Shown here: piece by piece, positions 13,554 to 15,768 of the stretch
Numbering within the stretch: the first letter of the stretch is position 1
Layout of the letters: every line of letters begins with the position of its first letter
Origin: Psychrobacter celer
GTDB lineage: Bacteria; Pseudomonadota; Gammaproteobacteria; Pseudomonadales; Moraxellaceae
Assembly: GCF_016107555.1 (NCBI RefSeq)
Contig: NZ_JABASU010000005.1
Span: 62,001 to 126,000, forward strand
Reading direction: 5' to 3'
Length of the DNA: 64,000 nucleotides
Program-made: the position numbers and the translations under genes
The notes under the pieces: model-generated
Seen by the model: only the letters and a program-made list of their open reading frames with translations
Told to the model about the DNA's origin: nothing
Database searches by the model: none

Positions 13554-14315
13554 ATGGTGGTAAGTTTGACAAGAATGCTACAATCATTTGGGCAAGCCCA
13601 AGACGATCTGCCAGCGCAAGCGGCCTTACAGGCGCAAAAGACAGCGAGCCACTATGATAGCCAAACAAAGAGCAAAGGCGGCGAGCAAGCAGATGACGGC
13701 AATAGCAAAAACCCGCGTACTACGCTGACGCCCCCTGAGCGTGCCGACCGTATCTGTGCGGCATTGGCGCAAGTGAGTGATGCGCGTTCGGCCACACCGC
13801 TCACCGACCGCTATCTGGCCAATCATGCACAAATGCGCCCAGACAACAGACCCCCTTTTGACCCTGATACCTTATGGTATCTCAAACATGGACGCTGTCC
13901 GATTATGACTGAGCTTGTAGATGTGGTCGATGAAGCCACCTTAAACGCCATGCCTATCGAGGCGGTGGCAATACTCGATAGAATAAATGGTAAGCTAAAG
14001 CGCTACCGTGAGTGGAGTCAAGAGCTCAACGATGAGCAGCAGCAACAGCATAACGAGCGGCAGTTCGTCATCGATAAGCTGGTTTCTGAGAGTATCCCCG
14101 AGGCGCTGCATCATTATGAGCAGCTGCAACGATTTAGCCCGCACCGTACCAGAAACCATGCAGCACAAGGTAAGATGAGCGCAGGTGATATGCTGACGGA
14201 TTTGTTTTTAGAGATTGACTACGAGCTTGATGAGCTGCTCGATGAATTGCACAACACTGTGATGAGCCGCCTTGCTTCCACGCATCGCTATGTCAAAAGC
14301 CGCACGCAAAGCTAA
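13554..14315 (+). CDS. Uncharacterised protein, first of three tandem paralogs
   Basis: I do not recognise the family. About 253 residues if started at the ATG at 13554; a GTG at 13527 is also possible. The N-terminal ~100 residues are polar and low in complexity, with no membrane segment. The C-terminal part shares an order of motifs with the next two genes: MPxxAxxxLxxINxKLKRY, then QFVIDKLVSESIPEALHHYEQL, then LxxIDYELDELLDEL, then RYVKSR at the end. The three are the same orientation and closely spaced, which suggests a duplicated set working together. This copy is the only one without an N-terminal hydrophobic anchor. Probable helical bundle or coiled coil; function unknown. Confidence 0.75.
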   Translation: MVVSLTRMLQSFGQAQDDLPAQAALQAQKTASHYDSQTKSKGGEQADDGNSKNPRTTLTPPERADRICAALAQVSDARSATPLTDRYLANHAQMRPDNRPPFDPDTLWYLKHGRCPIMTELVDVVDEATLNAMPIEAVAILDRINGKLKRYREWSQELNDEQQQQHNERQFVIDKLVSESIPEALHHYEQLQRFSPHRTRNHAAQGKMSAGDMLTDLFLEIDYELDELLDELHNTVMSRLASTHRYVKSRTQS

Positions 14316-14428
14316 GCTAAGGGTGGCGGTTGTGACTGCGAACCTGCTCTCATTGATACCGCGGTGCTTGCCAATCATTTTGCCAAAAAAAACTGCCAAA
14401 AAACTTGCCATAAAATAAGGATCAGCCA

Positions 14429-15100
14429 ATGACCCAAATGACTGCGATGTTTATCATGTTTGTATTGTATGGTGTGCTACCAGCGGCTGGGTTGTACTTG
14501 GGATATCGTGGTATCAAAAAAATGACCGCGCCCAAAATGCTGGAGTATAAGGCGATGCCGCAGCTGGGTTATATCCCCGAAAAAAGCCTACCGGCTGATA
14601 TCAAGACGATGCTGGCGCAGATCAACGAAAAAGGCGAAAAGCTGCGCGTCATTTATGGTGATACCAATAATGACGGTAAGATTGATGACAAAGACACTGT
14701 CAGTGAGACCTATATCATGATTCAAAATCTCATGGACAGACATGTGCCGCTGGCGGTGGCGGACTATCGGCGCTTGCATGACTTAGATGTGGGCGATAGT
14801 GCGCGCGCTGATACCACCAAAATCAAGAACTCCAATGTGACAGGCAAAGAAGCGCTGCTTGAGGTGCTCACCACCATTGACGCGCAGTTTGATGATTTGC
14901 TCAATGCCTCCTATCATCAAGACGGGCAAAAGCTACTCGCGACCAGTCGCTATCTACAAAAACGTTTTAAAACGCCTGCTGTCAGTCATGAAGGACAAAA
15001 CCTCGATGACAGTGCTGACGATGAGGCAGGTATCCAAACGCTTGAAACCCCAGCTGGTGCTGCGGCCAAAAAGGCGCGCGCTGACGATATCAAACGGTAA
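14429..15100 (+). CDS. Uncharacterised membrane-anchored protein with an EF-hand-like loop, second of three paralogs
   Basis: 223 residues, with AAGGA about 7 bases before the ATG. Residues ~7-27 form a single hydrophobic segment followed by Arg/Lys, so the rest is probably cytoplasmic. Residues 78-89 read D-T-N-N-D-G-K-I-D-D-K-D, which fits the 12-residue calcium-binding loop of EF-hand or dockerin proteins (acidic positions 1, 3, 5, Gly 6, Ile 8, acidic 9 and 12). The C-terminal part matches the neighbouring genes: SLPADIKTMLAQINEK, then YIMIQNLMDRHVPLAVADYRRL, then LTTIDAQFDDLL and SRYLQKRF. The last ~35 residues are an acidic, Ala-rich tail. Function unknown. Confidence 0.75.
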   Translation: MTQMTAMFIMFVLYGVLPAAGLYLGYRGIKKMTAPKMLEYKAMPQLGYIPEKSLPADIKTMLAQINEKGEKLRVIYGDTNNDGKIDDKDTVSETYIMIQNLMDRHVPLAVADYRRLHDLDVGDSARADTTKIKNSNVTGKEALLEVLTTIDAQFDDLLNASYHQDGQKLLATSRYLQKRFKTPAVSHEGQNLDDSADDEAGIQTLETPAGAAAKKARADDIKR

Positions 15101-15142
15101 AGATTAAAAGCTAAGCGCAATAATGGTAAAAGAGTAAGATAT

Positions 15143-15697
15143 ATGAGTGTGCTCATTGGTGTCGGTATCGTGACGACCATCACGACCATTTATTTGGGTA
15201 AAAAAGGCTGGCAAGCGCTGCATAAAGCCGTCGGTATCACCCCAGGCGTGCTTACATATCAAGATGATCAAGCGCCTTTGTCATTGTCTGCGGTCACATG
15301 GCGGCATCTGCGTTTACAAAAAAAACATCTACAGCGTTTACCAAATGATCAGCTGCGCCAGCTGCAGCGTATCGACGATAAGGTGAGTCGCTATCAGTCT
15401 TATCAAAAAACACAACAGGCTGATGATAAGACGCCGACGGTGACCGAGTCGCAGTTTGTGTTAGAAAAGCTGCTGTACACGCGCTTGCCTGACACACTAG
15501 CCAGTTATGATTATCTGGTCAGTATCGATAGCGCCGACCTATCACAAACAGAAAAAAAAGCAGAAGCCAGTGAGCTGTTGCAGCAGGTATTAGACCATAT
15601 CGAGCAGCGTCTAGATGCGTTATTGGACCAAGCGCAGACGCAGCATCTACAAGCGTTACGCGTGATGAAAAACTATGTCGAGAGCCACGATCGTTAA
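15143..15697 (+). CDS. Uncharacterised membrane-anchored protein, third of three paralogs
   Basis: 184 residues. The first ~20 residues are hydrophobic (VLIGVGIVTTITTIYL) and followed by Lys-Lys, as in the second paralog. It shares LPNDQLRQLQRIDDKVSRY, QFVLEKLLYTRLPDTLASYDYL, LDHIEQRLDALLDQ and a terminal KNYVESH with the two upstream genes. The predicted structure is mostly helical with many Gln and Leu. It begins 42 bases after the second gene and is followed by a strong terminator, so it ends the transcription unit. Some resemblance to the XpaC type of helical proteins crossed my mind, but I cannot support it. Confidence 0.75.
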   Translation: MSVLIGVGIVTTITTIYLGKKGWQALHKAVGITPGVLTYQDDQAPLSLSAVTWRHLRLQKKHLQRLPNDQLRQLQRIDDKVSRYQSYQKTQQADDKTPTVTESQFVLEKLLYTRLPDTLASYDYLVSIDSADLSQTEKKAEASELLQQVLDHIEQRLDALLDQAQTQHLQALRVMKNYVESHDR

Positions 15698-15728: not shown

Positions 15729-15768
15729 AAAAAAGCTGCCTGTGATATCTCTCACAGGCAGCTTTTTT
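15729..15768. terminator. Bidirectional rho-independent terminator
   Basis: AGCTGCCTGTGA and TCACAGGCAGCT form a 12-bp stem around TATCTC, flanked by A and T runs. It ends the three-paralog unit and, on the other strand, rluB. Confidence 0.92.

Follow-up and report, generated by a model that had tools for sequence, protein, structure and literature searches.

Three tandem, diverged paralogs of Psychrobacter celer as candidate membrane-proximal adaptor proteins

What three adjacent genes without a recognised family might do at the bacterial envelope is the question raised by a locus of Psychrobacter celer. The genes, here called A, B and C, lie in tandem in the window, i.e., the whole stretch of 64,000 nucleotides from contig NZ_JABASU010000005.1 (positions 62,001 to 126,000) that was analysed. 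We show that their proteins are related to one another and, at the profile level, to a family without a name, labelled T here, whose genes often stand in operons with those of TelA-type proteins. The reading that we favour, and to which we give an even chance, is that the trio supplies sub-membrane adaptor or scaffold subunits of an envelope-stress system of the TelA/Ter/Psp type, with a calcium input through B being probable; it rests on sequence comparison and on analogy with published systems.

One helical domain in three proteins

The open reading frames (ORFs) of A, B and C sit where a preliminary description of the locus had put them (Table 1), with gaps of 113 bases between A and B and 42 bases between B and C. 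The ATG at 13554 was taken as the start of A because the N-terminus that follows from it, MVVSLTRMLQSF, recurs in the majority of the 16 A proteins that were aligned. Differences from orthologs at codon positions 1, 2 and 3 amount to 18/12/47% in A, 18/12/48% in B and 35/18/55% in C, a pattern indicating real genes under purifying selection.

Relatedness was examined with genus alignments of 62 A, 68 B and 68 C Psychrobacter sequences, the window's own included, with rows admitted at E <1e-60 for A and B and E <1e-20 for C, and with only the six loci lacking A dropped. By profile-profile comparison (hhalign), A matched B at 93.9% (E 1.6e-7, 120 columns), A matched C at 98.2% (E 4e-14, 126 columns) and B matched C at 96.0% (E 4.2e-9, 120 columns). 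None of 200 column shuffles equalled the real score for any of the three pairs, and reversed alignments scored 12-18, against 54-93 for the real pairs. As a single sequence, B also reached A or C places in Psychrobacter genomes (E 1e-4 to 8e-3), and a combined A+B+C profile found these three places only in the window's genome, up to E 10. On this profile evidence, A, B and C are true paralogs sharing a C-terminal helical domain of ~120 residues, in agreement with the tandem, diverged paralogs that had been proposed at these positions. Likewise, no Pfam or NCBIfam entry matched A, B or C above its cut-off, as the earlier statement that no family was recognised would lead one to expect.

Predicted models of A and B, with a mean pLDDT of 71.3 and 67.8, respectively, show three helices in an identical order, of which the last is long. 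With this common order in A and B, and with profiles that link all three proteins, neither unrelated folds nor membership of different known families was found. The shared motifs from which kinship had first been proposed call for small corrections. The RYVxSR-like motif is terminal in A and close to the terminus in C, and in the window's B it reads RYLQKRF and has 43 residues after it. The QFVIxKLL motif is also degenerate in B (TYIMIQNLM).

The best 19-residue Kyte-Doolittle mean is 0.99 for A, 1.99 for B and 1.79 for C, which supports the prediction, already made in the preliminary description, that A has no N-terminal anchor and that B and C have one each. The hydrophobic segments are followed by a net charge of +4 in B and +3 in C; given the positive-inside rule, this charge suggests that the shared domain probably faces the cytoplasm.

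Between its predicted helices 1 and 2, B carries a loop of the form DxNxDGxIDxxD, whose positions 1, 3, 5, 9 and 12 are D or N and which we take to be of the EF-hand or dockerin type. The pattern D.N.D..[ILV]D..D is intact in 68/68 Psychrobacter B proteins, and of the window's 49 ORFs with a length of 150 aa or above, B alone has such a loop, as counted with a PROSITE-like pattern whose 13th position (T in B) was omitted. The loop is missing from the aligned A and C rows and from the B-like protein of the sister genus g20, the one sister-genus B found. EF-hand and dockerin-type loops share with B this arrangement between two helices; B differs in having a single loop within an otherwise unrelated three-helix domain, with Pfam EF-hand models below cut-off. 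Calcium binding by the loop is predicted and probable.

Table 1. Positions of the trio, of features within its proteins and of the repeat downstream (window coordinates; aa, amino acids).
Feature	Position	Strand	Remarks
Gene A	13554..14315	+	253 aa, no predicted membrane anchor
Shared domain in A, aa 132-252	13947..14309	+	hhalign; model helices 135-159, 166-194, 210-252
Gene B	14429..15100	+	223 aa, predicted membrane anchor, EF-hand-type loop
N-terminal hydrophobic segment of B, aa 6-24	14444..14500	+	then net charge +4
Shared domain in B, aa 53-180	14585..14968	+	hhalign; model helices 56-77, 93-119, 139-181
EF-hand-type loop of B, DTNNDGKIDDKD, aa 78-89	14660..14695	+	between helices 1 and 2
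Gene C	15143..15697	+	184 aa, predicted membrane anchor
N-terminal hydrophobic segment of C, aa 1-19	15143..15199	+	then conserved W...H..VGI.PG motif
Shared domain in C, aa 64-183	15332..15691	+	hhalign
11-bp GC-rich inverted repeat, A-run before, T-run after	15735..15768	.	read directly from sequence

The T family and its neighbours

The trio profile matched a 206-aa protein of another Moraxellaceae genome, G056 (E 3e-9, in a small set). This T protein is the last gene of an operon ordered SBP-like, TelA-like, SBP-VWA, T, in which TelA was assigned by Pfam (2.5e-27) and VWA also by domain match; "SBP-like" is our own reading, backed by the RefSeq name of a Variovorax counterpart. At a second Moraxellaceae TelA locus (G060) a weak T relative lies nearby (E 0.016), and the T alignment (A5) includes it on the strength of this weak score and of its place near TelA. 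A tblastn search of plasmids with the G056 protein gave 10 records, from Sphaerotilus, Variovorax, Deinococcus, Nonomuraea, Curtobacterium and Novosphingobium. Eight were examined, two near-identical Variovorax records being left out, and two of the eight stretches carry no annotation. The annotated neighbours of T include both TelA and VWA on the Sphaerotilus and Variovorax plasmids, whereas Deinococcus taeanensis shows VWA and Curtobacterium MCSS17_016 shows TerD-TerD-TelA. Around the T matches of the Novosphingobium and Deinococcus KNUC1210 plasmids, none of the annotated genes is TelA. The T genes themselves are named 'hypothetical protein' on the Sphaerotilus, Variovorax and D. taeanensis plasmids. 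In Variovorax sp. SRS16 (L190 2571-14576), a T operon ordered hypothetical, TelA, SBP-VWA, T lies ~2.4 kb from annotated Wadjet JetA-type defence genes.

Aligned with hhalign, the trio domain matched T at 97% (E 9e-11 to 1.6e-11) over 114-115 columns. None of 200 shuffles did as well (best 18.5, against 69), reversed T scored 11.7, and alignments of five unrelated neighbours (LysE, RluB, MarC, PsiE, CorA) and of TelA scored 8-16 against the trio. A T profile of seven sequences, no trio member among them, was then run over 369 genomes of the class and matched three at E <=0.001 (the window's genome, G399 and G654), with B (5.3e-6) and A (1.3e-5) as its only matches in the window's genome, a result to be read with the caution that the first T member had itself been found with the trio profile. 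The G654 match was taken as chance, given its internal stops and the lack of a corresponding gene in the ORF list. That the trio and T share common descent appears almost certain from these profile matches. Both have the same ~115-column C-terminal domain after an N-terminal hydrophobic part, and the patterns LP..L..I and LP..L..Y..L are conserved. The trio differs in being a tandem of three away from telA, in having single N-terminal segments or none, and in the calcium-type loop of B. The operon context of T (SBP, SBP-VWA, often TelA) is absent around it; its neighbours are a LysE-type gene and a pseudouridine-synthase gene (by Pfam) that we take to be RluB.

In the order to which G399 belongs, T was found at E <=1e-5 in 44 of 301 genomes. 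Wider stretches were drawn around 37 T places chosen by hand, 17 with a short and 20 with a long frame, at least three further short-frame places being left out; from the larger T alignment (47 rows), T rows of at least 300 residues or with stops were omitted. Stand-alone (short-frame) T loci have SBP-VWA in 16/17 cases, SBP in 15/17 and TelA in 9/17, and long-T loci have TelA within the stretch in 9/20 and SBP-VWA in 0/20, all of these being lower bounds because some stretches stop at contig ends.

The T protein of G399 has an N-terminal PspC domain (5.8e-20) and two T matches, and lies ~2.3 kb from TelA (2e-86). Pfam found PspC in 6/6 long T proteins scanned (five of the 20, plus L200), and 13 of the 20 matched a home-made PspC-like pattern. 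Fusions of PspC (PF04024) with one or two T domains (L200 4442-9141, L248-L267) have TelA nearby in several genomes, and in those scanned Pfam covers the PspC part only. As in the trio, the T domain of such fusions would be held at the membrane; the trio differs in having no PspC domain, PF04024 not being matched in A, B or C up to E 1.

A possible envelope-stress role and its rivals

TelA was found in 23 of 61 Moraxellaceae genomes. When genomes are counted as trio- or T-positive at E <=1e-4, it is present in 13/13 genomes with a hit and in 10/48 without; the hit counted for G056 is the TelA-operon gene itself, and minus that genome the figure is 12/12. TerD was matched in 7/7 genomes checked, weakly in one (G005, 6e-14), and the window's genome has five TerD matches, four of them clustered. 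The trio resembles the Ter system (TerD, TerC, TelA, vWA) in that its genome holds TelA and TerD, the latter a protein with calcium sites, and differs from it in standing at another locus and in having no Ter domain. The SBP-VWA protein of G056 was matched in none of 145 genomes of the order, in a search that had no known positive.

The TerD-type cluster of the window's genome (L271 4498-11135) lies on a contig other than those of the trio and TelA. Elsewhere in the Moraxellaceae, three further TelA loci (L176, L177, L178) carry, next to TelA and a TerD-type gene, an additional and weaker match to the TelA family; two of these loci (L177, L178) also encode a protein of ~310 aa of no named family.

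Calcium in TerD was reportedly treated by Pan et al. in 2011, and TelA in relation to nisin is said to have been treated by Collins et al. in 2010. Passages of more recent papers name TelA and a vWA protein of the Ter system as forming sub-membrane structures (PMC7824862), describe PspC as a sensor of membrane stress that occurs in fusion with signalling domains (PMC11237479), and mention TerD calcium sites (PMC8779313). In Listeria, passages of another paper place an xpaC-telA-like operon among bacteriocin-induced genes, along with a PspC/YvlB gene, report that a telA-like disruption mutant is more susceptible to nisin, and state the mechanism of the TelA-like protein to be unknown (PMC12791056). 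From these passages we infer a role for the trio as a sub-membrane envelope-stress scaffold or adaptor. The word TelA is absent from the main text of the 2024 survey of the Psp system (PMC11237479), and the PspC-T-TelA link may be unreported, as far as a literature search with few subscription journals shows.

According to this envelope-stress reading, A, B and C would have diverged from a single adaptor domain that is alpha-helical, close to the membrane and probably turned towards the cytoplasm, the domain that elsewhere forms the end gene of SBP / TelA / SBP-VWA operons or the C-terminal module of PspC fusions. B and C would anchor the three-helix domain to the cytoplasmic membrane on its inner face, with A as their peripheral partner, and the three would jointly scaffold or recruit TelA-type sub-membrane structures upon envelope perturbation. 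Calcium bound in the helix 1-2 loop of B could alter how the helices pack and thereby affect the binding of partners; TerD proteins are encoded in the same genome, and a Klebsiella TerD homologue binds calcium. A membrane-associated assembly with specialised subunits, as the preliminary description had suggested, is plausible. A bolder version, in which one TelA/PspC partner domain has become a membrane complex of three parts in Psychrobacter and the EF-hand loop of B calcium-gates the TelA/Ter machinery, we consider unlikely; if true, it would mean a bacterial calcium sensor on a scaffold covered by no annotated family.

TelA, XpaC, PspC and Ter proteins have been linked to tolerance of membrane-acting agents. 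The domain described here is a common element of the TelA/VWA operons, the PspC fusions and the trio of Psychrobacter, and none of its scanned members passes a Pfam or NCBIfam cut-off for it. The trio is a candidate TelA partner and B a candidate calcium switch. The wider T domain with its ties to TelA/VWA operons and PspC, the EF-hand-type loop of B and the probably derived solubility of A had all been missed by the preliminary description.

Several results weigh against an envelope-stress role. The T profile free of trio members does not find C in the window's genome. Confidence in the models is moderate, at the mean pLDDT given above and ~66 in the B loop, and Pfam EF-hand models score far under cut-off on B (EF-hand_8 12.6 bits vs 28; EF-hand_5 10.2 vs 25.9). 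Direct comparison of the trio with XpaC by hhalign gives ~1.3%, with 1/200 shuffles as good. No TelA was seen in 8/17 stand-alone T loci, several of which have SBP and SBP-VWA directly adjacent. The co-occurrence with TelA comes from about three clades; TelA is missing from two genomes (G051, G071) whose hits, at E 0.01-0.02, were counted as negative, and 10/23 TelA genomes lack a trio or T hit. In the window's genome, TelA is on another contig than the trio, and no trio-like gene occurs within the 14 kb read around it. Finally, one Psychrobacter genome in a single contig (G079) has TelA and TerD and no A, B or C at E <=10. Together with the 10/23 TelA genomes without a hit, this genome implies that TelA does not need the trio.

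Some of these points are equally what one would expect if the trio descends from T and has left the TelA/Ter context for an unrelated genus-level job, e.g., in an envelope structural or trafficking complex, a reading that we rate as somewhat unlikely. The trio is unlinked to telA, and G079 retains TelA without it. Furthermore, the locus is fixed beside a divergent LysE-type gene upstream and a convergent RluB-type gene downstream of C, each in 61/62 readable loci. However, both neighbours are on the opposite strand and therefore are not co-transcribed with the trio, and those genomes with a trio that were checked still have TelA and TerD.

XpaC (PF10112, Halogen_Hydrol), the TelA partner of many genomes, was our first guess for the trio, made from a motif; the direct test gave no significant match and an indirect link through T was left. 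T matched XpaC at 18-40% (scores 29-35, 109-142 columns), exceeding 200/200 and 150/150 shuffles (best 25.2 and 21.5) and the control of T against TelA (21.7), and the XpaC members examined adjoin TelA-type genes. XpaC and the trio are also alike in having an N-terminal hydrophobic part and a C-terminal helical part of similar pattern. Nevertheless, besides the weak direct alignment, PF10112 has no match on A, B or C up to E 1, and its best score in the window's genome is 11.9 bits, at another place and against a gathering cut-off of 29.8. Because the direct profile test gave no significant match, we do not file the trio as XpaC: that it is a divergent branch of this family seems distinctly unlikely to us, and a common superfamily of trio, T and XpaC is possible.

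Searches of other kinds pointed to no further family. The PADLOC-DB defence models gave 0 families for A, B and C up to E 0.01, and PHROGs gave weak matches only, the best being of C to a baseplate-hub family (E 0.005). Neither C against phages nor B against plasmids gave a match. Foldseek returned no match at E <=0.001 for the B model against the Protein Data Bank (PDB) or for the A model against viral models. Rows from VIA-align included, among others, designed three-helix coiled coils, BAR domains and Borrelia helical proteins (Z <=9.7), scores that for helical bundles may reflect no more than a widespread arrangement. A BAR domain is a dimeric crescent of three long helices, and several BAR chains appeared at Z 5.4-8.7, too low to point beyond the arrangement that helical bundles commonly have. 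A TelA-LXG chain among the rows, which we take to be an unrelated secreted toxin sharing only the name, was not used. Antiparallel three-helix bundles are common and these structure look-ups gave generic helical matches only, but a merely convergent coiled-coil resemblance of unrelated helical proteins is very improbable, already disfavoured by a match that stays colinear across ~115 columns (with a score of 12 for reversed T), by the low scores of the helical families TelA and CorA (16 and 11) and by the genome-wide specificity of the trio-free T profile.

Descent of the three lines and surroundings of the locus

With B as query, 67 related loci were found, all titled Psychrobacter; 61 of them show the gene order A-B-C and six show B-C. 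One of the six ends in a truncated contig (L030); the other five (L053, L054, L056, L057, L059) are readable upstream of B. These five, from Psychrobacter pasteurii, P. phenylpyruvicus, P. piechaudii, P. lutiphocae and one metagenome-assembled genome, keep B and C with A absent. A search of 249 Moraxellaceae genomes with the C profile gave 104 matches at E <=0.1: 90 in the same genus, six in the sister genus g20 (1e-16 to 2e-20), one in G056 of g18 (3e-5) and seven weak ones (E 0.01-0.05). Among the genomes listed, G079 is the only one of the same genus without a match.

In a tree of 53 domains, which carries a long-branch warning mainly for T rows and L129, Psychrobacter A groups with five A-like proteins of g20 (99/95) and Psychrobacter B with the single g20 B-like protein (96/88), C stands beside the A group (94/93), and T is set apart (97/91). 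Since the tree pairs A and B with their g20 counterparts, the A, B and C lines seem to predate the split of Psychrobacter and g20. The g20 A-like proteins have an N-terminal hydrophobic segment and a W...H...G motif, as in C. Because these relatives keep the anchor, A probably lost its own in Psychrobacter, and its solubility would be derived.

Downstream of C, the inverted repeat of Table 1 likely serves C and the convergent RluB-type gene, between which it lies, as a bidirectional terminator, judging from its sequence; it does not appear in an automated pattern scan. Another genome, G086, encodes a protein of 341 aa (L129 7224-8249; the gene is also that of L123) that has a hydrophobic segment at its N-terminus and, like the Psychrobacter trio, stands beside the RluB-type gene. 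The trio domain is matched by the first half of this protein, and the second half may represent a further copy that has diverged strongly.

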